A stretch of 64,000 nucleotides of DNA from Helicobacter cetorum (GTDB taxonomy: Bacteria; Campylobacterota; Campylobacteria; Campylobacterales; Helicobacteraceae), in the NCBI RefSeq assembly GCF_900198405.1, contig NZ_FZMR01000002.1, positions 62,001 to 126,000 on the forward strand, read 5' to 3'. The notes beneath the pieces were generated by a model. It was not told where the DNA came from. It ran no database searches and was given only the letters and a program-made list of their open reading frames with translations. Each line of letters begins with the position of its first letter. Position 1 is the stretch's first letter. Of this stretch, positions 1 through 40,380 are shown one piece after another. The position numbers were made by a program, and so were the translations under genes.

Positions 1-543
1 TGCCTCTAAAGCATGCTTTTTACCAATTTCAAAGGCTTTTTTGTTCGTTTCAGCAACTTTTGCGGGAACTTTTTTAAGCATGGTATCTAGCACGATATTT
101 TCTTCCACGCATTTAGTAAGCTCCACGGTAATAGCTAATGCCACTACAGATTGCGTGATAATATTACCCACTTCATCTTTAGCGATACTAATAATGGGGA
201 TTTTATAGATTTGATACTTTTCTTCATCTTCTTTAGTGGGCGTTACCAAATTAGGGTCAATGACTACAATACCACCTTCTTTAATGTCGCTTTTAAATTG
301 ATTATAACTCACTTGTGCGACTGAAAGCATAAAATCAATTTCACCCTCTTTAGCATAAGGAAAAATGATTTCATCTTTATCTAATAAAATATCCACCTTA
401 GTGGGCCCCCCACGCACTTGGGAAGTATAAGTAGAAGTCTTAGTGCCATAGCCCCCACTCACAATCTTAGCCTCTGCTAGAATTTCTCCAGCTAACAACA
501 CGCCTTGCCCTCCAACTCCGGTAAATCGTAATTGTGCTTCCAT
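1..543 (-). CDS. oorC: 2-oxoglutarate:acceptor oxidoreductase, gamma subunit (partial, 3' end outside window)
   Basis: Gamma subunit of the four-subunit 2-oxoglutarate:ferredoxin/flavodoxin oxidoreductase that makes succinyl-CoA in the cytoplasm in place of 2-oxoglutarate dehydrogenase. The visible 181 codons start MEAQLRFTGVGGQGV, the glycine-rich opening typical of the POR/OOR gamma family, and continue through a 'GYGTKTSTYTSQVRGG' segment. The family is about 186 residues in H. pylori, so only a few C-terminal residues should be missing at the left edge. Its ATG (543-541) shares one base with the oorB stop (TAATG), indicating translational coupling as the last gene of oorDABC. Confidence 0.93.
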   Translation of the reverse strand, partial: MEAQLRFTGVGGQGVLLAGEILAEAKIVSGGYGTKTSTYTSQVRGGPTKVDILLDKDEIIFPYAKEGEIDFMLSVAQVSYNQFKSDIKEGGIVVIDPNLVTPTKEDEEKYQIYKIPIISIAKDEVGNIITQSVVALAITVELTKCVEENIVLDTMLKKVPAKVAETNKKAFEIGKKHALEA

Positions 544-1364
544 TATTTCTTTCCTTGTGCTTTTTCAATGATTTCTTGATACGCCTCGCAATATTCTTTT
601 CTATTAGAGTCATGTTTTAAGATACCTGTAGGGAATTTACCCTCTCTTTCTTCAGGACTCATTTCTTCAAATTTGCGTTTGCTAACTAATCGGCTTTCAA
701 TCCATTTTAACATATCAGCTGCCTCGCCCATTTTATTCTTACGCCCTAAATTAATATGGCAATTACTATGAATATCAAAGAAACTAAAGCCTTTATGTGA
801 AAACCCCTCTTTTAAAGTTTTTTCTAGTCTCTGAGGGTCTAACACACTCTCTCTAGCTACAAAACTAGCTCCAGCAGCTGTAGTTAAAGCACATGGGTCA
901 AATTGGTTATCAATATTCCCCCATTGAGCCGTAACCGTCCACATGCCATTTGGAGTGGTGGGCGAAGTTTGAGAGTTAGTCAAACCATAAATAAAATTAT
1001 CTACCAAAATAAAGTTCAAATCAATATTTCTTCTGCATGCATGCATGGTGTGATTACCCCCAATAGCAAAGCCATCGCCATCGCCAGAAACTACAATCAC
1101 ATGCTTGTCTGGGTTTGCTAACTTAATTCCTGTCGCATAGGCTACTGCTCTACCATGTGTAGTATGAACAGTGTTACAATTCACATACGAACTCATACGC
1201 CCACTACAGCCAATCCCACTCACTAAGCACACATCATCCATTTTCCAGCCTAGTGCATCAATAGTGCGGATAATGGATTTTAAAATCACGCCATCGCCAC
1301 AGCCCCAGCACCATAAAGTGGGCATTTTATCCACACGCAAGTATTCATCATAATTAAACGCCAT
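543..1364 (-). CDS. oorB: 2-oxoglutarate:acceptor oxidoreductase, beta subunit (TPP-binding)
   Basis: Beta subunit of the 2-oxoglutarate oxidoreductase complex; it binds thiamine diphosphate and contributes to decarboxylation. The 273-residue protein has the family opening LWCWGCGDG, the TPP/Mg motif region VVSGDGDGFAIGGNH (about residues 92-106) and VDNFIYGLTNSQTSPTT. Length is normal. It lies one base downstream of oorA and overlaps oorC by one base, so the subunits are co-translated. No sign of damage. Confidence 0.95.
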   Translation of the reverse strand: MAFNYDEYLRVDKMPTLWCWGCGDGVILKSIIRTIDALGWKMDDVCLVSGIGCSGRMSSYVNCNTVHTTHGRAVAYATGIKLANPDKHVIVVSGDGDGFAIGGNHTMHACRRNIDLNFILVDNFIYGLTNSQTSPTTPNGMWTVTAQWGNIDNQFDPCALTTAAGASFVARESVLDPQRLEKTLKEGFSHKGFSFFDIHSNCHINLGRKNKMGEAADMLKWIESRLVSKRKFEEMSPEEREGKFPTGILKHDSNRKEYCEAYQEIIEKAQGKK

Positions 1365-1365
1365 T

Positions 1366-2493
1366 TTAAAGCTCCTTCAACTTTGCGATGATTTGTTTAG
1401 GCGAAATCGTGCGCCCATTTGCTTGACCAAAGAAATGCACTTTTCTTTGCATAACCCTTTCAATCTCTTCTAAATACTGCCCTTTATTCAATTCAATCAC
1501 AAGGATTTTCTCGTATTTATCCCCTATTTCTTTCAATCGTTTGTTAGGGCTTGGCCATAAGGTCTTAGGTCTAAAGAAACCAACTTTTTGCTTACTCTCT
1601 TTTTTGTAATCTTTTAAAGCTTCTTTGACCGCTAAAGAAACAGAACCATAAGCAATAATGACAATATCAGCCCCCTCTAAATCCATTTCTTCATTTTCGT
1701 TGATAATATCTTGCTTAGATTCAATCTTATTGAATAATCTGTCCATTAAATCCCCACCAATTTTGGCATCTTCAGTAGGAAAACCAATAGGCCCATGGTG
1801 TAAGCCTGAAACATGGTAGCGATAGCCCTTAAAGAAAGGATTTAAAATGGCTGGTTCATCTTGATTTACCCCATAAGGCTTATAGTCTTTTTTATCGCCC
1901 ATAAATTCCTTACGATTGATAGTCATTTTTTGCACTTCTTCTAAAGTAGGAATTTGCACCTTACCATACATATGCCCTACGGTCTCATCCATAAGTAAGA
2001 ATACCGGAGTCATTAACATTTCAGCTAGATTAAACGCTCTAATAGTCTCTGTATAAGCTTCTTGTAAACTAGCAGGAGCTAGTGCAACTGATTTAAAATC
2101 CCCATGGATTGGGTGCTTTAAGAAATTTACATCACCTTGTGCTACACGAGTAGGCATACCGGTTGATGGACCTGAACGCATTACATCAACAATGACTAAA
2201 GGAATTTCTGCCATAAAGCCATAGCCAATTTGCTCTACTTTTAATGAAATACCCGGTCCTGAGCTTGCTGTCATAGACTTAGTCCCACTCATGCTCGCCC
2301 CTAAAGCTACACTAATCCCACTGATTTCATCTTCCATTTGGATAAAATGCCCACTATGCTTAGGTAAGGCAACACTCATCGCATGCATAATATCCGAGCT
2401 TGGTGTGATAGGATAGCCTCCAAAAAATCTACACCCCACTTCAATAGCCGCTTTGGCTACCAACTCATTTCCATCAGAAATAATCTCACGCAT
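1366..2493 (-). CDS. oorA: 2-oxoglutarate:acceptor oxidoreductase, alpha subunit
   Basis: Alpha subunit of the OOR complex, with the pyrimidine-binding domain of the POR family and the C-terminal 'transketolase-like' domain. The 375-residue protein starts MREIISDGNELVAKAAIEVG and contains GGYPITPSSDIMHAM and the MEDEISGISVALGASMSG segment, which mark the family. The ATG overlaps the oorD stop by one base (TAATG). In microaerophilic Campylobacterota this complex closes the oxidative branch of the incomplete citric acid cycle. Confidence 0.95.
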   Translation of the reverse strand: MREIISDGNELVAKAAIEVGCRFFGGYPITPSSDIMHAMSVALPKHSGHFIQMEDEISGISVALGASMSGTKSMTASSGPGISLKVEQIGYGFMAEIPLVIVDVMRSGPSTGMPTRVAQGDVNFLKHPIHGDFKSVALAPASLQEAYTETIRAFNLAEMLMTPVFLLMDETVGHMYGKVQIPTLEEVQKMTINRKEFMGDKKDYKPYGVNQDEPAILNPFFKGYRYHVSGLHHGPIGFPTEDAKIGGDLMDRLFNKIESKQDIINENEEMDLEGADIVIIAYGSVSLAVKEALKDYKKESKQKVGFFRPKTLWPSPNKRLKEIGDKYEKILVIELNKGQYLEEIERVMQRKVHFFGQANGRTISPKQIIAKLKEL

Positions 2494-2834
2494 TACTTGC
2501 CTCTCCCTTCTAAAATAGTCTCTTCTAAGAGCATGTAGTGATTTTCTTTAACTTTATCACGGCGTGCCTCTGCCTCTTTAGAAACTTTAGCAAATTTAAA
2601 GTCCTTCCTATCAGCTACATAAATTGCAAAATCAGGGCAGTGCAACTCACATTGTGTGCAACCTATGCAACTCTCAGGATAAGCTACTTTTGCTACCTTG
2701 CCAAGCACCCTTTCTTTTTCAACTCCCATGCCAAGAACCCCAGCAGGACACACAGATACGCAAATATCACAACCCTTACAGCGGTCTTCATTTACCCAAA
2801 CAGGAACACCATCAGGTGCACTCATTTTAGCCAT
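2493..2834 (-). CDS. oorD: 2-oxoglutarate:acceptor oxidoreductase, delta subunit (ferredoxin-type)
   Basis: Small iron-sulfur subunit that carries electrons from the TPP site to the external acceptor. The 113 residues hold two ferredoxin cluster motifs: CKGCDICVSVCPAG (about 19-32) and CIGCTQCELHCPD (about 56-68), each C-x2-C-x2/3-C-x3-CP, so two [4Fe-4S] clusters are expected. First gene of the operon. The start follows an AAGGAG-like ribosome site (plus-strand ctcctt just downstream of the ATG complement). A shadow frame opposite it is meaningless. Confidence 0.95.
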   Translation of the reverse strand: MAKMSAPDGVPVWVNEDRCKGCDICVSVCPAGVLGMGVEKERVLGKVAKVAYPESCIGCTQCELHCPDFAIYVADRKDFKFAKVSKEAEARRDKVKENHYMLLEETILEGRGK

Positions 2835-2906
2835 TCAATCTCCTTCATGTCAAAGCCTATCAAAAAAATATGATTTGAACTTCTAACAATCAAAATTTTG
2901 CTTAAA

Positions 2907-2915
2907 ATTGTAGCA
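2907..2915 (-). promoter_or_regulatory. Predicted extended -10 of oorDABC
   Basis: On the minus strand this reads TGCTACAAT, an extended -10 as used by the Helicobacter housekeeping sigma factor. It lies about 70 bases upstream of the oorD ATG in the only gap upstream of the operon. No clear -35 is visible, which is usual in this genus. Confidence 0.5.
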
Positions 2916-3036
2916 AGGCTTGTTAAATAAATTCTAAAATTATTTAATAATAAGAACAGAAAATTAAAATGTGAAAATACTTAACACTTTTTTTCAAAGA
3001 TAATAAAAAAAGAAACTTTTAATCTAAATTTTAAAA

Positions 3037-4026
3037 TTAAAAATGATTATTAGAAATCTTAATATTATTCAAATGCTCTTTATAGGTCGCACTAAAAGCA
3101 TGCTTTTTGTTAGGCATTTTTACAAAATACAAAAAATTAGTCTCTTTAGGAAAAACAACCGCCCTAATAGCCTCTATACTCACACTTCCTACAGGATTTT
3201 TAGGCAACCCCTTAAATTTATAGGTATTATAGGGGGTATTGTCTTGTTGCACTCGTTCTTTGGTAATTTTAGTATGAGAAAACTCTTGGTAATTCAAAGC
3301 CCCATCCATTTGCAAGGGCATATTCTTTTTCAAGCGATTAAAAATCACGCTTGCAATAATAGGCATTTCTTCAATATTGGCAGCTTCTTTTTGCACAATA
3401 GAAGCTAGAATGATTTTTTCAAACCACTCTTCTTTATGGTAGTATCCAAGCCATTCTTTACTCAAACTTTCATGTTTTTTCATAGACTGCTTAACTAAAG
3501 TCTGCATAATTTGATTAGCATCTTGTCCTAAAAGTAAACTATAGGTGTTAGGAAAAATGACACCATCTTCTAAAACATGCCCATTTAATCGTGGTGCAAT
3601 GCTTTCATATGCCATATTTAGAAGTTCTACTTCTATATTGTAAGCGGAACTCAACGCTTGGGTAAAAAAGTAGCGGGTTTCTCCGGGAATTAGCGTGATA
3701 TTTTTACTTGCCATTTTTCCCTCAACCAAACGGGCTAAAAAATCCCCTTTTCTTAAAACATTAGCCCCCATATCAATGTAGCCCTTTTTAGGCGAACCAA
3801 AGATTTTTAACAGCACCTTATCTAGTCCATTCACATCTATGCCACTAGCTTGCAAAGAATGCAACACTTTATTTAAAGAACCTGAAGGAACAACGATGAT
3901 TTTCTTGGAATAAATTGGTATACTTAGATAAAAAAGAATGGAAATGAAGAAAAGAAAGCACGCATCTAAAAAGGTATTTAATGTAGTTATTCTTTTTGTA
4001 GTGGTGCTTACTCTCTTATGTGTCAT
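3037..4026 (-). CDS. mltG: Endolytic murein transglycosylase MltG (YceG family)
   Basis: Inner-membrane lytic transglycosylase thought to end nascent glycan strands. One membrane segment (about residues 20-40, FLFFISILFYLSIPIY) is followed by a periplasmic YceG domain with ITLIPGETRYFF, the catalytic Glu region IILASIVQKEA and the end motif GLPKNPVGSVSIEAIRAVVFP. The frame stays open upstream to 4215, but ATG at 4026 has AAAGGG eight bases before it and gives 329 residues, the length I remember for HP0587, so I chose it. With this start the gene overlaps the divergent AsmA-like gene by 80-90 bases. Older databases call homologues aminodeoxychorismate lyase, which is a misannotation. Confidence 0.85.
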   Translation of the reverse strand: MTHKRVSTTTKRITTLNTFLDACFLFFISILFYLSIPIYSKKIIVVPSGSLNKVLHSLQASGIDVNGLDKVLLKIFGSPKKGYIDMGANVLRKGDFLARLVEGKMASKNITLIPGETRYFFTQALSSAYNIEVELLNMAYESIAPRLNGHVLEDGVIFPNTYSLLLGQDANQIMQTLVKQSMKKHESLSKEWLGYYHKEEWFEKIILASIVQKEAANIEEMPIIASVIFNRLKKNMPLQMDGALNYQEFSHTKITKERVQQDNTPYNTYKFKGLPKNPVGSVSIEAIRAVVFPKETNFLYFVKMPNKKHAFSATYKEHLNNIKISNNHF

Positions 4027-6880
4027 ACATAAAACCCTTTCTAATGGTCTCCATATACAGAATTTAAAAATCGGCAAACTTGGTATTTCAGAATTATATC
4101 TAAAGCTTGATAATAAACTTTCTTTAAATATCAATAGCATTGACTTATCCTCTCTTTTAAATAAAAAATCAGATGGCGACCACCACTTAGATGTGAATGA
4201 CTTAATCAAAAGCATTCGCTATGGCATTTGGGCAGTTTCATATTTTGAAAAATTTAAAATTAAAGAAATCATTTTAGATGCTAAAAATAAAGCTCGCATT
4301 TTTTTTGATGGGCATAAATATGAATTAGAATTTCCCGGAGTTAGAGGCGAATTTTCCCTAGAGGATAGTAAAAATATCAAACTTAAAATCATTGAATTGC
4401 TTTTTAAAGACATTAAAATTCAAGTAGATGGAAGCGCACACTATTCACCTAAAGCTAAAAAAATGGCTTTTCATTTTATCGTTAAGCCTTTAGATGAACC
4501 AAGTGCTACGCTCTATTTACAAGGGCTAACCGATTTAAAAACCATAGAATTAAAAGCCAATACCTCAAAAATGAAAAGCATTGCCTTTTTAAAACCTCTT
4601 TTCCAAAAACAATCTCAAAAGACTTTAAAAACATGGATTTTTGACAAAATTCAATTCTCTAGCCTTAAAATTGAAAATGCCTTAATTAAAGCCAATTTAG
4701 CTAAAAATAAACTTCTCCCCTCACTTTTAGAAAACTCCTATGTAAAAGCGACTATTACTAATTCTTCCATATTATTTAATGATGGTTTATCGCCAATTAA
4801 AATCAACAAAGCTGAACTTGTTCTTAAAGACAAACAACTGCTAATAGAGCCTCAAAAAATCACTTATGAAACTATGGACTTAGCCGGCTCTAACGCTATT
4901 TTATCTAACATGCTAACAGCATCTAAACTAGAAATCTTTCTAAGAACTAAGCCTGATTATTATGGCGATACGATTAAAGACTTATTGAGTGCATATAAAA
5001 TCACTCTGCCTTTAGATAAAATCAGCACCCCATCAAGCGCTGATTTAAAACTAACTTTGCAATTTTTAAAGAACATGCCACCCCTTTTTAGCGTGCAAGG
5101 CAATGTAGAATTACAAGAAGGGAGCTTTTTACTTTACAATATCCCCCTTTACACACAGAGTGCTGATATTGATTTAGATATTACTCCAGAATACCAATAC
5201 ATCTATATAGATACTATCCACACTCGCTATGAAAACATGTTAGACCTAGACGCTAAAATCGCTTTGGATATTCACAAAAAAAAGCTTTCTATTGAATCTC
5301 AAGTTCATAAAATACAGCTTAATACTAATAACAATATCAACATGCGTTCTTATAGCTTAAGCAATGCTGAAGATGATATAAGACCTAGTTTTGCCTTAGA
5401 TTTAAAAAGCTTGCACTCCATTATTCAAGCAGGCGAAAATTCAGCCATTTTTAGAAGAAAAATCATAGACACCATTAAAGCTCAAAGCGAAGATAAATTC
5501 AGCAAGAATGTGTTTTATGCTACGCAAGATACCCTTAAAAGCCTTTCTTTAAGCTTTGATTTTTCTGACCCAACACATATGCAATGGAATGTCCCTGAAT
5601 TGTTATTGGAGGGTGAATTTAAAAATAATGCTTATATCTTTAGACTCAAGGATTTGAAAAAAATCAAGCCCTACTCCCCCATTATGAATTATTTCACTTT
5701 AGAAGATGGCTCTTTAGAGGTCTCTACAAGCGATTTTTTAAATATTGATTTTTTAGCTAAAGACTTGAAAGTAGATTTGCCCGCTTATCGCGCCGACGGC
5801 TCGCATATCAATATGCTTTCCTTGCTTGGCTCTATCAATAAAGATGAAATTTATGTTTATACTCCCAATAAAAATGTGTCTGTAATGATAAAAGGAGACC
5901 AAAAGGATATTGTCATCAATAATATTGATTTTAATATTGATGAATTTTTAGATAGCAAAATGCCAGCCATTGTTAAATTGCTCTCAAAAGAGCGTAGAGA
6001 AAAGCCCACGCCAAAAGAAATCCATGATGAAGACATTTTCATAGCTGCTAAACAACGCTATGAAAAAGCTCGTAAAATTATTCCTATAGCGACACATATT
6101 CAAGCTAAAGACATTGTTTTAGTGTATAAAAAAATGCCTATCCCTTTAGAAAACCTTGACATAGTCGCTCAAGATAATAGAGTAAAAGTAGATGGTAATT
6201 ATAAAAATGGCATGATTTTTGCAGACTTAGTGCATGGAGCTTTGTATCTTAAAGCCCATAATTTTAGTGGGGATTTTATCAACTCAGTCTTACAAAAAGA
6301 TTTTGTAGAAGGGGGGCTATACACTCTTATTGGAACCTTTAAAGACCAAGTTTTTAATGGCGAATTAAAAGTTCAAAATACAAGCTTAAAAAATTTCGCT
6401 CTCATGCAAAATATGGTCAATCTTATCAACACTATTCCTTCGCTTATTGTTTTTAGAAACCCTCATCTAGGAGCGAATGGCTATGACATTAAAAAAGGTT
6501 CCATTGTTTTTGGAGTTACTAAACAATATTTAGGACTAGAACAAATCAATCTCGTTGGAAAAACCTTAGATATTGTAGGCAATGGCATCATAGAACTAGA
6601 CAGAAACAAACTAGATTTAAATTTAGAAGTTTCTACTATCAAAGCTTTAAGCAATGTTATCAGTAATATCCCTATTGTGGGGTATCTCATCTTAGGTAAA
6701 AATGGAAAAATCTCTACTAATGTGAGTGTGAAAGGCACGCTAGATAATCCTACTACTAAAGTTACTCTAGCAAAAGACATTGCCCAAGCCCCCTTAAAAA
6801 TTCTACGCCGTATTTTTACACCCATTGATGTGATTGTAGAAGAAATCAAAAAGAATATTAGAGAAAAAGAAAGGAAGTAA
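3938..6880 (+). CDS. AsmA/YhdP-like large envelope protein (DUF3971-type)
   Basis: A 980-residue protein with one N-terminal membrane anchor (about residues 13-32) and a long periplasmic region rich in beta strands, ending in a basic tail (RRIFTPIDVIVEEIKKNIREKERK region). The C-terminal 'GNGIIELDRNKLDLNLEVSTI' and 'PIVGYLILGKNGKISTNVSVKG' pattern is typical of AsmA-like proteins of the TamB/YhdP group, which are proposed to carry lipids across the periplasm. That role is inferred from the family. A second ATG at 3944 is an equally good start. HP0586-like by position. Its first codons lie antisense to the start of mltG. Confidence 0.75.
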   Translation: MEMKKRKHASKKVFNVVILFVVVLTLLCVIHKTLSNGLHIQNLKIGKLGISELYLKLDNKLSLNINSIDLSSLLNKKSDGDHHLDVNDLIKSIRYGIWAVSYFEKFKIKEIILDAKNKARIFFDGHKYELEFPGVRGEFSLEDSKNIKLKIIELLFKDIKIQVDGSAHYSPKAKKMAFHFIVKPLDEPSATLYLQGLTDLKTIELKANTSKMKSIAFLKPLFQKQSQKTLKTWIFDKIQFSSLKIENALIKANLAKNKLLPSLLENSYVKATITNSSILFNDGLSPIKINKAELVLKDKQLLIEPQKITYETMDLAGSNAILSNMLTASKLEIFLRTKPDYYGDTIKDLLSAYKITLPLDKISTPSSADLKLTLQFLKNMPPLFSVQGNVELQEGSFLLYNIPLYTQSADIDLDITPEYQYIYIDTIHTRYENMLDLDAKIALDIHKKKLSIESQVHKIQLNTNNNINMRSYSLSNAEDDIRPSFALDLKSLHSIIQAGENSAIFRRKIIDTIKAQSEDKFSKNVFYATQDTLKSLSLSFDFSDPTHMQWNVPELLLEGEFKNNAYIFRLKDLKKIKPYSPIMNYFTLEDGSLEVSTSDFLNIDFLAKDLKVDLPAYRADGSHINMLSLLGSINKDEIYVYTPNKNVSVMIKGDQKDIVINNIDFNIDEFLDSKMPAIVKLLSKERREKPTPKEIHDEDIFIAAKQRYEKARKIIPIATHIQAKDIVLVYKKMPIPLENLDIVAQDNRVKVDGNYKNGMIFADLVHGALYLKAHNFSGDFINSVLQKDFVEGGLYTLIGTFKDQVFNGELKVQNTSLKNFALMQNMVNLINTIPSLIVFRNPHLGANGYDIKKGSIVFGVTKQYLGLEQINLVGKTLDIVGNGIIELDRNKLDLNLEVSTIKALSNVISNIPIVGYLILGKNGKISTNVSVKGTLDNPTTKVTLAKDIAQAPLKILRRIFTPIDVIVEEIKKNIREKERK

Positions 6881-34368: not shown

Positions 34369-34563
34369 TTAAATAAAAATCATCAAAAGATTTTTTAAAG
34401 CCAAGACTTTGTTTAAAATCTTAAGAAAAGTCTTTAAGGCTTGATAAAAAATTTTTAACATTAAGATTGCCTTAATATTATCTTCAGCATCGATTGTTTT
34501 TGACCCAAACTTTAATTCTGCATCTTCAGCCAATATTTCTTCAATACAATCTATAACTTTCTA
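34369..34563 (-). pseudogene. Start-less coding remnant 1
   Basis: On minus the frame is open for about 65 codons and reads protein-like (EEILAEDAELKFGSKTIDAE ... LKIFYQALKTFLKILNKVLA) but has no start codon at its head and a TAG just upstream. No family recognised. It lies in the 574-base gap between the SulP gene and the nuclease gene and suggests decay of an older gene. Confidence 0.3.
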
Positions 34564-34631
34564 ACTCTCACTTTCATAACCCTTTTACATATAAAACCAC
34601 GCCATAGCACCACAAAAAGAAGGCTTTACTT

Positions 34632-34784
34632 TTAAGCTTGTCGTAAATCTTTAAGACTATAGCCCAAAGGGCTTAGGGCATTTTTAAGTGCTATAAGATA
34701 GGTTTCCTTTACGCCATGCTTATGAGTGGCTATCATTTTTAAATCCGCTATGGCAATATTAGTCCCCCCTTGAGTTAAAAACAT
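34632..34784 (-). pseudogene. Short protein-like frame, possible remnant 2
   Basis: A 50-residue frame (MFLTQGGTNIAIADLKMIAT ... GYSLKDLRQA) with good amino-acid composition and helical pattern. In-frame TGA lies five codons upstream, and an overlapping frame (ATG AAC GCT ATT) suggests a frameshift at the head. It may be a small gene, but in this gap a decayed C-terminal piece is likelier. A plus-oriented hairpin with T-run (34865-34893) follows beyond it. Confidence 0.35.
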
Positions 34785-34864
34785 CTCTTTTAATAGCGTT
34801 CATACAAGAAAAACTTCGTTTTTATCGCACACCACTCTTTTATCTATAATTTTTTTGCATATCT

Positions 34865-34893
34865 TGTGGGATTTTAACCCCACAATCTTTTTA
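34865..34893 (+). terminator. Hairpin with T-run in the accessory gap
   Basis: TTGTGGG (34865-34871) and CCCACAA (34880-34886) pair around eight bases and are followed by TCTTTTT. The orientation suits a plus-strand transcript, yet no plus gene is close, so it may stop read-through from the SulP gene. Confidence 0.4.
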
Positions 34894-34934
34894 ATATAAA
34901 TGCTCCATTGAATATGACATCAAAATTCCTTTGA

Positions 34935-36218
34935 TTATGAGATGTATTTATCCATGTTAGCGTTTAGCATCTCTACTAATTCTTTATGCTTGTTGAAGTA
35001 GTCTAAAATAGCTTGACTAAAATTTTCTACACTCCAAGTTCCATTAAAGATATTGTCTGCAAAGTTTTTACTACCACCAAGCTTTTCAGACAGATACCAC
35101 CAATCTAGCCCCCATTCTCCAGGTTTTTTAAAATTGACAAGATTAAAATCTTTTTTTATTTGCTCGTTTTTACCTTTGAGTGCTTTGTGCCCTGTAATTC
35201 CAAAATACACATTCAAATTTTCTGTTTCAAGAAAAAATTGCATTTTTTCATTATTTTGCTTAATCTCCAAACAACCTACATATCTTTTATTAAAATCTTG
35301 TGCCGTGCAACTACTGCTCACAACCCACTTTGCTCTATCATCAGCGCTCATTTTTTGCTCTACTTGTTCTTTAACTTGTGCTAGAAAAGTAACGACTTTT
35401 GTGGCTTTTTCCATATGTATTGTTGCTTCTCTCTCTTTTTTTATCACATCAAAATGTTTGCTTATTTCTTCTGCTACTTCGTAATCATTCTCAATTAACT
35501 CTCTTAAGTCTTTATTCACTTGTTGCTCCTTATGATAAATTTTGTCTAATAATTTGTCGTATTGTTTGAAAATCACGCTCAAATCATGCAAATTCGCCAC
35601 TTCTTTTAAGCATTCTTGTATCCATTCTTTTATCTCTACCTTATAGCAAAGGTTTTTAAAAAATATGCCTTGCTCTACATTTTCTAATTTAAGAATGTTT
35701 TCATCACTACCCGTATAAAATAGCTTTGTATTGCTCTCATCTAACTTGAAATCGCCTAAGCTGTTTTGACTAGGTAAGCGCTTTTCTCTAGTCAAATACA
35801 AAACACAAATATCTTGTGTATCTTTAACTTGATATTTTTCAACTACTTGCTGAATATAACGAAAAATTTGCTTTGGTTTATCTTCAGCATCATGGATTTT
35901 ATTCTCTAAAATGATATGCTTAATACCATCGCCTAAATAAATATCTATAAAATCATGTTCTCTATCTGCTTTCGCATTCATGCTATTAAAACCAAAACTC
36001 TCTAGATGACACGCCTTTAAAAACGCCTTTAAAAACAAGTCTTTTTGGTAGTGTACTCCCATAGGGTCTAAGAATGAATGCAAAAAGCTAGAATGCCTTT
36101 TTTCATCACACATCAGCACACTAAACACATTGTAATCATGCAAGCCCCTAGCTCTTTTTATCTCAAGCTCTTTTAAAGCGAGTTTTGCTCTTCTAAAAAA
36201 AGTTTTATAATCGCTCAT
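34935..36218 (-). CDS. PD-(D/E)XK nuclease superfamily protein (PDDEXK_4-like)
   Basis: A 427-residue protein. The N-terminal domain (about 1-150) has the hallmarks of the family: HSSFLHSFLDPMGVH, DFIDIYL (Asp) and IILENKIHDAED (E-x-K core), then a RYIQQVVEKYQ helix. A coiled region (about 215-265) links to a C-terminal domain (about 270-427) ending VENFSQAILDYFNKHKELVE, which resembles the repeat unit of the protein at 37719-39410. Such nucleases occur in defence and repair contexts. The ATG follows GGGAG and overlaps an 11-codon leader ORF (ATGA). A duplicated (GA)9 leader precedes it. Confidence 0.75.
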   Translation of the reverse strand: MSDYKTFFRRAKLALKELEIKRARGLHDYNVFSVLMCDEKRHSSFLHSFLDPMGVHYQKDLFLKAFLKACHLESFGFNSMNAKADREHDFIDIYLGDGIKHIILENKIHDAEDKPKQIFRYIQQVVEKYQVKDTQDICVLYLTREKRLPSQNSLGDFKLDESNTKLFYTGSDENILKLENVEQGIFFKNLCYKVEIKEWIQECLKEVANLHDLSVIFKQYDKLLDKIYHKEQQVNKDLRELIENDYEVAEEISKHFDVIKKEREATIHMEKATKVVTFLAQVKEQVEQKMSADDRAKWVVSSSCTAQDFNKRYVGCLEIKQNNEKMQFFLETENLNVYFGITGHKALKGKNEQIKKDFNLVNFKKPGEWGLDWWYLSEKLGGSKNFADNIFNGTWSVENFSQAILDYFNKHKELVEMLNANMDKYIS

Positions 36219-36250
36219 TTTCTACTCCCTAAAAAGCGAGTTAAGACCAT
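36215..36250 (-). CDS. 11-codon upstream ORF coupled to the nuclease gene
   Basis: ATG at 36250 encodes MVLTRFLGSRK and stops at TGA that overlaps the nuclease ATG (ATGA). It has the better ribosome site of the two (AAGGAG, six bases upstream), located exactly where the paralogous leader at 40 kb has the start of its main gene. It may couple or throttle nuclease translation. Confidence 0.45.
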   Translation of the reverse strand: MVLTRFLGSRK

Positions 36251-36260
36251 TAGTTTCTCC

Positions 36261-36440
36261 TTTTTTAACTTTATTAACCCCACAAACGCTTAGAAAACGC
36301 CTCAAATATGGGGTTGAAAAAATTAAATTGTGATTTTTAAAAACTGAAAGACTAGATAAAAGAATAATAAAAAATCTTAAGCTTACAAGAGAGAGAGAGA
36401 GAGAGAAGACAAAATTTTAAGAATGATTGTCATTGTTATA
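36261..36440 (-). repeat. Duplicated leader element, copy 1
   Basis: Two blocks are shared with copy 2 (40190-40380): 36261-36328 (68 bases, identical) and 36382-36440 (59 bases, one mismatch), separated by a diverged middle. Block one forms AACCCCA (36276-36282)/TGGGGTT (36309-36315), a 7-bp stem. Block two contains (GA)9 at 36389-36406, read (TC)9 on the transcribed minus strand, and an AATGACAATCATT inverted repeat. A minus-strand -10 (TATAAT, 36467-36462) lies just upstream, so the element is probably the 5' leader of the nuclease message. Confidence 0.8.
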
Positions 36441-36625
36441 CACTCCATAAACTTTAAAAGCATTATAATTAAAAATCTTTAATGCGCAATAAATAGCGTG
36501 TTATTCCACATTCAAAAGATTTTAAAAAATGCCTTTAAAAATATTTGGTCTCATTTTTTTGAGACTTTTATTTCAAACTTGTTTTAAGCAAAAACTTTAC
36601 TTCATTAAAAATCGCTTATAACCAC
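36441..36625. other. Intergenic gap between leader copy 1 and the 188-residue gene
   Basis: Holds a minus-strand -10 TATAAT (36467-36462) for the nuclease unit, a GTCTCA/TGAGAC hairpin (36548-36565) and otherwise AT-rich sequence without a gene. Confidence 0.5.
36548..36570. terminator. Hairpin downstream of the 188-residue protein gene
   Basis: GTCTCA (36548-36553) and TGAGAC (36560-36565) pair around TTTTTT and are followed on plus by TTTTATTT. On minus it is followed by an A/T-rich run; it may end the minus operon weakly. Confidence 0.35.
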
Positions 36626-37192
36626 TCATTTTGAAAACCTCATCTCATTAGACAAATAATCTAAGCAATCAGCTATTTTATCTAGCAATTCATTTGTTCT
36701 TTGTCTTTCGTTATTAGCGTTTTTAAGCTCTAAATTAATATTTCTAAGCAAGTCATTCGTTTTTCTTTTTTCATCAGCAATCTCATAAACTTGCTCACCA
36801 ATATAACGCAACCTATCATAATGCCAATCACCCCCCCACCCTGCTCCTCCATTAGCATACAACACCATTTCTTCTAAAGATTGTATCCTTTCGCACAACT
36901 CTGTTTGAAAATCCCTAGTAATCTTACGCCAGCCAAAAATATTAGGCTTAGAAACCATGCCTTCTTTTTCTAACATCTCTAAGACAAGTTTACAATCTTT
37001 TAAATCAAAATTGATGATGTGCTTAAAATACGCCTTAGTAAATGTTGATTTTTCCTTTTGCCCTTTTTCAAGCATTCTCAAAAATTGTTCTAGCGATTCA
37101 TCATTAATATCTTGCTTTTTTTTCCATAGATTTTCGTTGAATAAATCTCTAAGTTCTTTTAAAACCTCTTGACTAAATTTTTCTTTATTCAT
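36626..37192 (-). CDS. Island protein of unknown function, wHTH-like and coiled coil (188 residues)
   Basis: The frame opens at 37207, but ATG at 37192 has AAAGGA at proper distance, so MNKEKFSQEV is the start. The N-terminal half (about 1-95) is helical and reads like a winged-helix module (FDLKDCKLVLEMLEKEGMVS, then FGWRKITRDF). A Gly/Trp-rich link (YANGGAGWGGDWHYDRLRYI) leads to a coiled coil (about 135-180). No family recognised. The first eight bases overlap the end of the upstream gene (ATGAATAA), so both are co-translated. Confidence 0.6.
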   Translation of the reverse strand: MNKEKFSQEVLKELRDLFNENLWKKKQDINDESLEQFLRMLEKGQKEKSTFTKAYFKHIINFDLKDCKLVLEMLEKEGMVSKPNIFGWRKITRDFQTELCERIQSLEEMVLYANGGAGWGGDWHYDRLRYIGEQVYEIADEKRKTNDLLRNINLELKNANNERQRTNELLDKIADCLDYLSNEMRFSK

Positions 37193-37709
37193 GTCTGTTC
37201 CTTTCATAATCTAAATTCCTTTGAAAAACCGCTCTTAAATTTTCGCCTAAACTAGAAACTTTCATCATGGTTTTTAAATTCGCATGGTTTCTATGCTTGG
37301 CATCAAGTTTTGCAAACTCTTCTTCTAAAGTTTCTGCCTTTTGAATAAAGGCTTCTAACTCTTCTTTAGAACAAATAAGTGGTGTTGCAATTTCATACAA
37401 TAGTTTATCTAATAATTTTTGCAAACCACCATCAATACAAGTCTTATCTCTAATCTTAATATCCTCATCTAATCCAAAAAAATACAAGCTATTTACAAGC
37501 CCTTCTATGCTATCTATTTGAGCCTTTTTAAAAATTAGCTCTAATAATTCCATAATCAATTCTTGCTTTTTAGCATGGTGTTCTCTTATGTCTTGCAATC
37601 TAGCAAAAAATTCATCTAAATCAGTCTTAGCGATAACACCCTTTTGTTCTAAGCTTTTGGCTTGTTCTTCTAAATAATGCGTGAACTTTTTAATAAAACA
37701 ATCTAGCAT
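37185..37709 (-). CDS. Island helical protein of unknown function (174 residues)
   Basis: All-helical, acidic/basic mixed protein with probable coiled coils (about 8-60 and 115-150: LEAFIQKAETLEEEFAKLDAK). It has no membrane segment or catalytic motif I can name. It starts nine bases after the 563-residue protein gene with AAAGGG ribosome site overlapping that stop, and overlaps the next gene by eight bases; the three form one transcription unit and perhaps one complex. Confidence 0.6.
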   Translation of the reverse strand: MLDCFIKKFTHYLEEQAKSLEQKGVIAKTDLDEFFARLQDIREHHAKKQELIMELLELIFKKAQIDSIEGLVNSLYFFGLDEDIKIRDKTCIDGGLQKLLDKLLYEIATPLICSKEELEAFIQKAETLEEEFAKLDAKHRNHANLKTMMKVSSLGENLRAVFQRNLDYERNRHE

Positions 37710-37718
37710 TCTTACCCT

Positions 37719-39410
37719 TTATGTTAAAATCAATTCTTCTATATTCTCATTTAGGACTTCTATTACTTCTTGGCGTTTTTTGAAATAATTATAGACAAAG
37801 ACGCTGTAATTTTCAGCGTTCAAACTTGTATTTTCTAAGCTCTCTAAAAAGCTTTTTTCTAAATTTAGGGCGTCTTCTACAAGGCGATAATCTAGCCATG
37901 CACTACTAAAGTAGGTATTGAAGTTTTGTGCGCTATTTTCAATTAAATAAGCCGTTTTTAACAAATCTATTCCACTACGCCTACATTTTTCAAAAATGCC
38001 ACAATTTACTATATATTCCACACAAGAAAGCCCTCTAATTTTTAGCAACTTAAAAGCAAATTGCGCCTCTTTGATTTCGCCCTTAAAATTAAGATTTAAT
38101 TCTAAAATACCCTTACTCTCTTTTAATTCTAGCTCCCAATTAGGTTCTTTTTCAAACTTTTCTTTTAAAAATTCATAAGTCTTTGTTATAAAATCTCTTA
38201 CTAAAGAATTAGATTTTTTAATAAGATTATCCATATATATAAGCCATTCTTTATGCTCTAAACAATACGCATAAATATAATCAGCGATTTTTACAATATC
38301 TTTAGCGCTTAGCGTTTCTAAACTAAGCTCTTTTTTTAAGCTTCTTATATCAAAAGAACAATGATTGCGTTGCGTTTTATTAAAATGTGGCTCAGTTTGT
38401 TGTAAAATCTCTTGGATTTGTCTAAAGTTAGTGTCGCCTGCCTGATAGCATCTAATCAAACTGCTACGCCCATCATAATCTATTGCACTTGCGTTAGCAT
38501 TGATTAATTTAACGCTCTTTTCTATCGTGCTGATATAAAACCCTCCAAACGCATCTTCTTTTGGATACACATAAAAATTAGTCCCCTTAAACTTCTCTTG
38601 CAATACTGCAATTAAGGACTTTGTAGATTCTTGTTTTTCTTGTTCTTGTGTGTATTGTTGTGTTATACAGCCTATATGTTTGTCAAAAAAGCATAGCACT
38701 ATTTTAACAAACTCTTCTACACTTATTTTGTTTGTTCTTATCCAATCAAGTAGATTATCTTCTAATTCTTCATTCTTATAACAACCCTTGCAACTCATTT
38801 CGCCACTTTCTTCAAACCCTTTTATTTGAATACAGCAACTATCATTACCATTAAAAATAATAGAAATCTCATGTTCTATTAAATTAGAATATTCTACTTG
38901 ATAATTTGTAGGGATTTTAGCTTGAATAAGACTAACAGCTGTTTTTAAAAACTCATCTTCAATTTGTCTGTCTTGTTTGTATTTTTCTTTGAGCTTTAAT
39001 AATTTTTGCTTGTTTTCTTTAAAAAAGTTTAAAACAAAATCCCCTAACTCCATTTCACATAGCTCACTTTCTATGATATTATCTAACATTTTTTCTTTAA
39101 GCTTGAATTGCTCTATAAGATTACAGCTCATCAGCGTGCTATCTTTTAACCCCGTTCCTTGAATAGAAAAAACCATAGAACACTTACGACTTTGCAAGAC
39201 AATTTGAATGCCAAAATCTTCAATCTCTATATAAACTAAATTCCCACAATGATTTACTTTCTCAAATCCCTGTTCTTTTAAATACTCTTTTAAATTCGCC
39301 AAAAAATCTTTAATAACACATTCTTCTAACTCATCAAATTGTCTGAGTAAATGCTTAGAATAATTTTCTTTTCTTTTATTTATCATCGCTCTTATTTGTT
39401 CTTTATCCAT
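37719..39410 (-). CDS. Island repeat protein of unknown function (563 residues)
   Basis: ATG at 39410 has AAAGGA seven bases upstream and is preferred over an earlier in-frame start at 39443. The protein seems built of about four units of 110-150 residues, each with a leading amphipathic helix (FLANLKEYLKEQ; FLKTAVSLIQAK; LIAVLQEKF; FITKTYEFLKEKF), a strand-rich part (VYIEIEDFGIQIVLQ; EISIIFNGNDSCCIQIKG; FGGFYISTIEKSVKL; ILELNLNFKGEIKEA) and a closing helix (ELGDFVLNFFKENKQ; SVEEFVKIVLCFFDKH; KIADYIYAYCLEHKE; NYSVFVYNYFKKRQE). The nuclease C-terminus has the same pattern. Likely a ligand- or partner-recognition scaffold (inference). Confidence 0.6.
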   Translation of the reverse strand: MDKEQIRAMINKRKENYSKHLLRQFDELEECVIKDFLANLKEYLKEQGFEKVNHCGNLVYIEIEDFGIQIVLQSRKCSMVFSIQGTGLKDSTLMSCNLIEQFKLKEKMLDNIIESELCEMELGDFVLNFFKENKQKLLKLKEKYKQDRQIEDEFLKTAVSLIQAKIPTNYQVEYSNLIEHEISIIFNGNDSCCIQIKGFEESGEMSCKGCYKNEELEDNLLDWIRTNKISVEEFVKIVLCFFDKHIGCITQQYTQEQEKQESTKSLIAVLQEKFKGTNFYVYPKEDAFGGFYISTIEKSVKLINANASAIDYDGRSSLIRCYQAGDTNFRQIQEILQQTEPHFNKTQRNHCSFDIRSLKKELSLETLSAKDIVKIADYIYAYCLEHKEWLIYMDNLIKKSNSLVRDFITKTYEFLKEKFEKEPNWELELKESKGILELNLNFKGEIKEAQFAFKLLKIRGLSCVEYIVNCGIFEKCRRSGIDLLKTAYLIENSAQNFNTYFSSAWLDYRLVEDALNLEKSFLESLENTSLNAENYSVFVYNYFKKRQEVIEVLNENIEELILT

Positions 39411-39441
39411 TTTTAAATCCTTTATTAGTATTTTTAAACAC

Positions 39442-39470
39442 AAAAAAAGTGCGTTACAAAGCTGTAACGC
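39442..39470 (-). terminator. Intrinsic terminator after the UDG-like gene
   Basis: GCGTTACA/TGTAACGC is a perfect 8-bp stem (39451-39470, four-base loop). On minus it is followed by ACTTTTTTT. It separates the UDG-like gene from the three downstream genes, so those need their own promoter or depend on anti-termination. Confidence 0.75.
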
Positions 39471-39486
39471 TAGAAACTCTTAAATT

Positions 39487-40179
39487 TCACACACCTTTAA
39501 ACTTTCTATAATTTTCAATTAAAGGTTTAACATCATCTTTAAAAAGAGCGATGTATTCATCACTTAGCCCTATAGTGCCTGTAGGGTGTGGGAAAGCTAC
39601 CACTTCGCATTTTTCAAAACTTTGAAACCCTACTCTAAAAGACTTGCCTTCAAAAGGCTTAGTGATATAATTTGGCTCATTTTTAGCCTTACCTAGAAAA
39701 TTTTCAGCATAAGGTTTAATTCTCTCATCATTTAAGGCTTCTAGCATATTGATTCCAAAAAAGAATAATAACTTAGGCTCTAGGACTTCTAAATGATATA
39801 AAAAGTTTTCTTTATGTTCTGTTTGAAAAAATGAATGGTAGTTTTCGTTATCCATGCTGTCTGCTCCATTGCTAAGCCAGTTTATCCCTATAAGACTTCT
39901 TTCAAACGCCCCCACTTTATCAAAGTCTGTTTCCAAGCAACAATCCCATAAACCAAAAAATTTAGTAATGCGTTTTTGAAAAGCAAAATCATTTTTGCTA
40001 GGATAATTGACAAAATTAGAAAAGCAATGCTTTTTGCCCTGATAATCATCTAATAAATTAGCAATTCTATGTGGCTTATTATCTCCATCAGTTCCAAATT
40101 GTAGCCCACAAATTACAAGACCTTGATTTTCATTTTCTTTAAACTTGCTATTAAAAGCTTTGATTTTTGAATACGCCAT
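39487..40179 (-). CDS. Uracil-DNA-glycosylase-superfamily-like protein
   Basis: A 230-residue protein; ATG at 40179 has AAAGGAC before it, whereas the longer frame to 40212 runs into the duplicated leader. Segments LVICGLQFGTDGD (motif A position), PKLLFFFGINMLEAL (central strand) and VVAFPHPTGTIGLSDEY (HPS-like motif B) resemble the UDG superfamily fold, but the catalytic Asp/Asn context is atypical. It could be a divergent glycosylase or a nucleotide-binding sensor. It has its own leader (copy 2) and terminator. Confidence 0.45.
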   Translation of the reverse strand: MAYSKIKAFNSKFKENENQGLVICGLQFGTDGDNKPHRIANLLDDYQGKKHCFSNFVNYPSKNDFAFQKRITKFFGLWDCCLETDFDKVGAFERSLIGINWLSNGADSMDNENYHSFFQTEHKENFLYHLEVLEPKLLFFFGINMLEALNDERIKPYAENFLGKAKNEPNYITKPFEGKSFRVGFQSFEKCEVVAFPHPTGTIGLSDEYIALFKDDVKPLIENYRKFKGV

Positions 40180-40189
40180 TTTTGTCCTT

Positions 40190-40380
40190 TTTTTTAACTT
40201 TATTAACCCCACAAACGCTTAGAAAACGCCTCAAATATGGGGTTGAAAAAATTAAATGCGAAATTTGAAAAATTGAGTGGTTAGGTAAGAGCCTAGATAA
40301 AGAGTGGTAAGGAATTTTAATCTTACAAGAGAGAGAGAGAGAGAGAAGACAAATTTTTAAGAATGATTGTCATTGTTATA
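40190..40380 (-). repeat. Duplicated leader element, copy 2
   Basis: Matches copy 1 in blocks 40190-40257 and 40322-40380. The stem AACCCCA (40205-40211)/TGGGGTT (40238-40244) and (GA)9 (40329-40346) are conserved, while the middle has diverged. Here the ribosome site at the end of the leader serves the UDG-like start directly. Confidence 0.8.

Follow-up and report, generated by a model that had tools for sequence, protein, structure and literature searches.

A recurring pair of a UDG-fold protein and a PD-(D/E)XK nuclease in mobile, defence-like cassettes of Helicobacter

Do five neighbouring minus-strand genes in a Helicobacter chromosome form one nuclease system, and if not, which of them belong together? 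The question is raised by a stretch of 64,000 nucleotides (the window; contig NZ_FZMR01000002.1, positions 62,001 to 126,000) from a 1.79-Mb Helicobacter-type genome in 50 contigs, for which the handle G000 was assigned. The original prediction for the window proposed an undescribed system made of a protein resembling uracil-DNA glycosylase (UDG), a large repeat protein, two small helical proteins and a PD-(D/E)XK nuclease. All five open reading frames (ORFs) of this island, here called cassette G000-A, were confirmed in the sequence, and their start codons were refined:

39487..40179, minus strand: P5, the first gene, UDG-like; 230 aa, a predicted UDG-superfamily-fold protein
37719..39410, minus strand: P4, the former "repeat protein"; 563 aa, with a C-terminal domain homologous to that of the nuclease and without a nuclease motif
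37185..37709, minus strand: 174-aa accessory protein without a reliable family match
36626..37192, minus strand: 188-aa accessory protein without a reliable family match; C-terminus coiled-coil-like by eye
34935..36218, minus strand: PD-(D/E)XK nuclease, the last gene; 427 aa, matching Pfam PDDEXK_4 and PADLOC PDC-S26

The island is real. Its core is a recurring module of P5 and the nuclease, and the genes in the middle are exchangeable. In a sample of 34 Helicobacter species genomes the close nuclease was found in G000, G008, G011 and G018 only, and P5 was found in the same four. All six nuclease loci sit downstream of P5 in the same orientation, across three cassette types and at several sites. 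One type (P5, P4, 174, 188/193, nuclease) is represented by G000-A and G011-A, the nuclease of the latter being broken; another (P5, P4, nuclease) by G000-B and G011-B; and the third (P5, 120 aa, nuclease) by G018 and G008-A, with a 120-aa protein that is unrelated to P4. At a seventh P5 locus, G008-B, P5 is followed by a decayed P4 start. Every genome of the genus with either homologue has both, always in the same cluster; among these close homologues in the genus neither lack of co-occurrence nor a nuclease standing alone, the two observations named beforehand as counting against a link, was found. Fisher's exact test gives p 2e-5 for the co-occurrence of P5 and the nuclease if the genomes are taken as independent, which they are not, since kinship is ignored.

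The idea that all five genes make up one system was not borne out. The 174/188 pair is restricted to G000 and G011 among 99 relatives, always together with P4; P4 is present in four of the six nuclease loci, the other two carrying the 120-aa gene instead, and full-length P4 is confined to G000 and G011 (two copies each) among 397 genomes of the phylum. A toxin-antitoxin reading of the 174/188 pair was rejected, given that it has no family match and no independent occurrence. What the data do support is a narrower proposal: nuclease and base-recognition fold recur together in a mobile unit that has shared leaders and resembles a defence set, with a putative function in defence.

Two other Helicobacter species retain no more than a decayed 120-aa gene at the queF/rsfS/miaA site (L178:1486-1818 and L179:1271-1662), which marks a former cassette site; in L179 a cytosine-methyltransferase-like ORF adjoins it. 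By eye, the ORF lists of the six loci showed no methyltransferase ORF, either among the cassette genes or immediately next to them.

What kind of protein is P5? The window copy matched no Pfam (PF03167 included), NCBIfam or PADLOC family, and its sequence profile found no meaningful match and no glycosylase chain among PDB sequences. Six of 29 P5 relatives match the Pfam UDG family (PF03167) weakly, with a best E of 0.0026. An AlphaFold2 model based on a 29-sequence alignment (pLDDT 85.5, pTM 0.87) had thymine DNA glycosylase (TDG) as its top Foldseek match (E 4e-4); VIA gave Z 10.7 to TDG and 9.9 to family-4 UDG, and the matches it listed were TDG, family-4 UDG, UdgX and MUG (Z 8.6-10.7 over 150-165 residues). 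As modelled, P5 has the alpha/beta fold of the UDG superfamily. Its active-site-like segments follow core strands 1, 2 and 4: GLQFG (25-29), N100-W101 and PHPTG (197-201). The last of these, behind the final core strand, contains motif B (H-[PA]-[ST]), and its P and H do not vary among the 29 family members. In the window copy, motif A (G-x-[NDEQ]-P-[GA]) reads G-L-Q-F-G, while relatives have N/Q/E at the third place and W/F/H at the fourth. At the N100 position the alignment of the eight Helicobacter P5 copies shows Asn in four and Glu in four. According to the Brig1 study, the residue at the base-recognition position is Asn in S. tokodaii UDG (N82) and Glu in Brig1 (E147; PMC11078745); N100 of P5 appears to match this position, the two being equated by strand order and motif.

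The nuclease matches Pfam PDDEXK_4 (PF14281; E 3.9e-26), and it is not undescribed: PADLOC lists its family, PDC-S26, as a candidate for defence by a single gene, and the match (E 4.5e-45) spans residues 5-419, nearly its full length. D92, E105 and K107 (D...ExK) are invariant in an alignment of the five intact close copies. Its sequence profile found no meaningful match in the PDB, and a structure model built without an alignment was poor (pLDDT 42.7) and was discarded. P4 residues 404-561 are homologous to nuclease residues 275-427 (hhalign probability 97, E 3e-11), and Pfam and PADLOC profile searches returned no nuclease match for P4. The description of P4 as a repeat protein is shown only for its last domain, a copy of the nuclease C-terminal domain; a reading of all four segments as repeats was rejected because hhalign supports the last one only. 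From its sequence P4 looks like a scaffold or recognition protein partly built from the nuclease C-terminal domain.

The cassettes move, and parts of their proteins are exchanged between them. G000-A and G011-A share 88% identity over 3.8 kb yet occupy non-syntenic sites: in G011 the genes that flank the window cassette lie elsewhere, at two separate places. Among the P5 alleles there are two N-terminal types (residues 1-120, with 10-60% amino-acid identity in most bins), while their C-terminal halves (121-230) are nearly identical at 80-100%. In the nuclease the catalytic N-terminal part is conserved and the C-terminal part (240-390) is hypervariable, with 5-40% identity in most comparisons; as an exception, the G008-A and G011-B nucleases share most of this part at 92-98% despite their different middle genes. 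Judged from these alignments, the P5 N-terminal half and the nuclease C-terminal domain have been swapped by recombination. Specificity parts of restriction systems are typically exchanged in this manner. The pattern is as expected if the swapped P5 N-terminus and nuclease C-terminus serve as target-recognition parts, for which it is circumstantial evidence by analogy.

Are the five genes expressed as one unit? The window contains the following further elements, all on the minus strand:

40323..40373, minus strand: leader ORF before P5, MTIILKNLSSLSLSLL followed by a stop, with a (CT)9 run
36383..36433, minus strand: second leader copy, before the nuclease, MTIILKILSSLSLSLL followed by a stop, with a (CT)9 run
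40192..40256, minus strand: hairpin in the 5' untranslated region (UTR) upstream of P5; RNA fold -21.3 kcal/mol, z -5.4 versus shuffles
36264..36328, minus strand: the same 5' UTR hairpin upstream of the nuclease; RNA fold -20.8 kcal/mol, z -4.5 versus shuffles
39451..39470, minus strand: terminator-like hairpin, then a T-run, between P5 and P4; seen in all five P4-type loci
36597..36629, minus strand: stub of an older nuclease start (MSGYKRFLMK, then a stop), overlapping the 188-aa stop as ATGA
34453..34920, minus strand: pseudogene of an FtsZ-C-domain-like gene; tblastn pieces with E 4e-15, 2e-10 and 1e-4

The gene overlap ATGAATAA reported for the 174/188 pair was found again, the 188-aa start overlapping the 174-aa stop by 8 nt, and a ribosome site that overlaps a stop is present at the stop of the 563-aa gene. 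The duplicated leaders were likewise recovered: the stretches of about 190 bp in front of the first and the last gene are 84% identical. A simple five-gene operon was rejected in view of the terminator-like hairpin between P5 and P4 and the second leader before the nuclease; with a conserved hairpin between gene 1 and gene 2, a single transcript is too simple a picture of the five genes. The second leader and the stub of an older nuclease start (36629-36597) suggest that the present nuclease arrived together with its own leader by recombination through the leader; in G011 the stop of the 188-type gene retains an intact ATGA overlap with its nuclease, versus the stub in the window.

All eight Helicobacter P5 copies are preceded by the leader, which combines a good ribosome site with the short ORF M[TKE]xILKNLSSLSLSLL, containing (CT)5-10. 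Counting the window nuclease as well, the peptide stops right after the repeat in eight of nine leader copies, for which chance is about 0.001 (one in three for each copy, kinship ignored). A-type cassettes carry the hairpin 3' of the leader. A promoter scan returned chance-level matches only. Beyond the cassettes, G014, G015, G018 and probably G021 have a dynamin-like GTPase locus with a related leader in front of it, M-x-VILKNS-(SL)n, which includes a CT run (L173 of G018, 416-4500 minus, plus L142, L143 and L163). This suggests a leader family common to several defence-like genes. Next to the second cassette (L009:1662-3375) a GA/CT dinucleotide repeat (RERERE) divides a gene into two ORFs and is likely a phase-variable switch.

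The decayed gap that had been noted downstream of the nuclease is the FtsZ-C-domain-like pseudogene listed above. The gene is intact in the relative G011, where it follows the nuclease directly (232 aa, L048:9591-10289); it is without the usual N-terminal part, and its product matches FtsZ with E 0.001.

How far does the association extend beyond the genus? A genome-wide scan returned 31 P5 loci, mostly in Proteobacteria. P5 relatives stand with a macro-domain gene on Acinetobacter plasmids, adjoin PglZ and BrxC/D BREX genes (L114), and precede a KAP-like NTPase gene (L116, by eye). In G076, P5 is accompanied by SLOG and AAA genes, and 11 kb from it there is a PDDEXK_4 gene. Distant nucleases occur without P5 and, by eye, near WYL/HTH-type regulators. 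Viral_contigs held no relatives of P5, P4 or the nuclease, and phage records no P5 relative; a phage origin was rejected on these grounds. A betaproteobacterial metagenome-assembled genome has a P5 relative beside a second, different UDG-like gene (L103:7920-9443), and homologues in L108 and L109 possibly lie in integron-like arrays (repeated short attC-like ORFs, by eye). In a distant relative (L086:5430-10099) P5 is the first of a row of genes for a 305-aa protein, a SLOG protein (DprA/YAcAr-like) and an AAA protein of 699 aa, which may be an undescribed system in its own right.

What, then, would the cassette do? We consider it about an even call that two proteins form the core of a mobile cassette of defence type, P5 recognising or excising a base and the PDC-S26 nuclease cutting. 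In such a scenario P5 would scan DNA for an atypical base and probably excise it, leaving an abasic site, and the PD-(D/E)XK nuclease of PDC-S26 type would then cut the foreign DNA so marked. P4 or the unrelated 120-aa protein would act as exchangeable adaptors, target recognition would fall to the swapped parts (P5 N-terminus, nuclease C-terminus), and the translated (CT)n leader together with the 5' UTR hairpin would set expression. We infer base excision, coupling of P5 with the nuclease, an anti-phage or anti-plasmid role and a role for the leader from the arrangement described above. The most specific version, a glycosylase-licensed nuclease in which P5 picks the atypical base and passes the site to the nuclease via an exchangeable adaptor, with shuffled recognition parts and expression set by the repeat leader, is put forward tentatively and may well be too specific.

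Several observations weigh against a two-protein defence cassette. Because the four genomes are related, the co-occurrence of P5 and the nuclease is inflated. There is one real exception in the genus, G011-C (L085), where P5 stands without a nuclease or a trace of P4 and an unrelated lipoprotein-like gene comes next. None of the Helicobacter cassettes was shown to adjoin defence genes of a known type, P5 relatives beyond the genus mostly lack this nuclease and are mostly orphans, and the terminator-like hairpin between P5 and P4 is kept in all five P4-type loci, the decayed one included. In motif A, Phe replaces the Pro of UDG and Gln the Asn of TDG, and because of these two replacements P5 could be a base binder without catalysis. 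The orphan P5 homologues, the distant nucleases without P5 and the separating hairpin also agree with two independent single-gene defences in a mobile hot-spot, P5 acting alone like Brig and the nuclease alone as proposed for PDC-S26, united by shared cargo and regulation; Brig1 and Brig3 do work without a dedicated nuclease. Against this, the close nuclease is headed by P5 in the same orientation at six of six loci, through three cassette types and several sites, and the P4-type protein shares the nuclease domain, so that we regard two separate defences as rather unlikely.

Catalysis would be dispensable if P5 had a UDG fold without its activity and controlled the nuclease as a sensor of bases or nucleotides, by signalling instead of base excision. 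A motif A that lacks the usual Pro and varies between E, Q and N would suit a sensor, as would relatives that adjoin nucleotide-handling macro-domain and SLOG (DprA/YAcAr-like) genes; however, the Asn/Glu position and the motif-B His are kept as in active glycosylases, with the His invariant throughout the 29 members, and a sensor appears improbable to us. A DNA repair or transformation accessory set with no part in defence could draw on the fact that a UDG fold and a nuclease are the parts list of base-excision repair. Yet a patchy set (4 of 34 genus genomes) that is mobile, decayed in other species and subject to domain swapping is unlike housekeeping repair, which makes this the most improbable account by far.

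Compared with known systems, the cassette consists of ordinary parts in an unusual, recurring combination. Brig1 and Brig3 are anti-phage DNA glycosylases (PMC11078745, PMC13160076), and the defence glycosylases known are reported to need no dedicated nuclease. Like P5 they are UDG-superfamily-fold proteins linked with defence and show Asn/Glu variation at the base-recognition position, and Brig1 relatives also lie near BREX/Pgl and ADP-ribosyl-glycohydrolase genes; unlike the cassettes they have no dedicated PD-(D/E)XK nuclease, and the P5 profile matched no PDB glycosylase chain. PDC-S26 covers the window nuclease nearly in full but is itself a candidate only, and here the nuclease is tied to P5 and exchangeable middle genes. 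The PabI-family restriction glycosylases of Helicobacter and Campylobacter share the idea of base excision and come from the same bacterial order, and apurinic/apyrimidinic endonucleases turn PabI abasic sites into breaks (PMC10273834); in contrast to the cassettes, which are without a methyltransferase, this family has the HALFPIPE fold and a cognate methyltransferase. TDG, family-4 UDG and UdgX share the predicted fold of P5 (Z 9-10.7) but are 11-14% identical to it, their motif A being GINPG/GEAPG versus GLQFG. The literature searched contained no defence system of a glycosylase plus PDDEXK and no PDC-S26 paper, which is not proof of novelty.

If the preferred reading of a base-directed two-protein cassette is true, P5 and the nuclease with their swapped recognition domains would amount to base-directed restriction without methylation. 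The cassettes would also offer partners that can be tested with a nuclease family so far listed as no more than a candidate for defence. P5 itself represents a widespread, unannotated family with a predicted UDG fold that travels on plasmids and beside defence genes.

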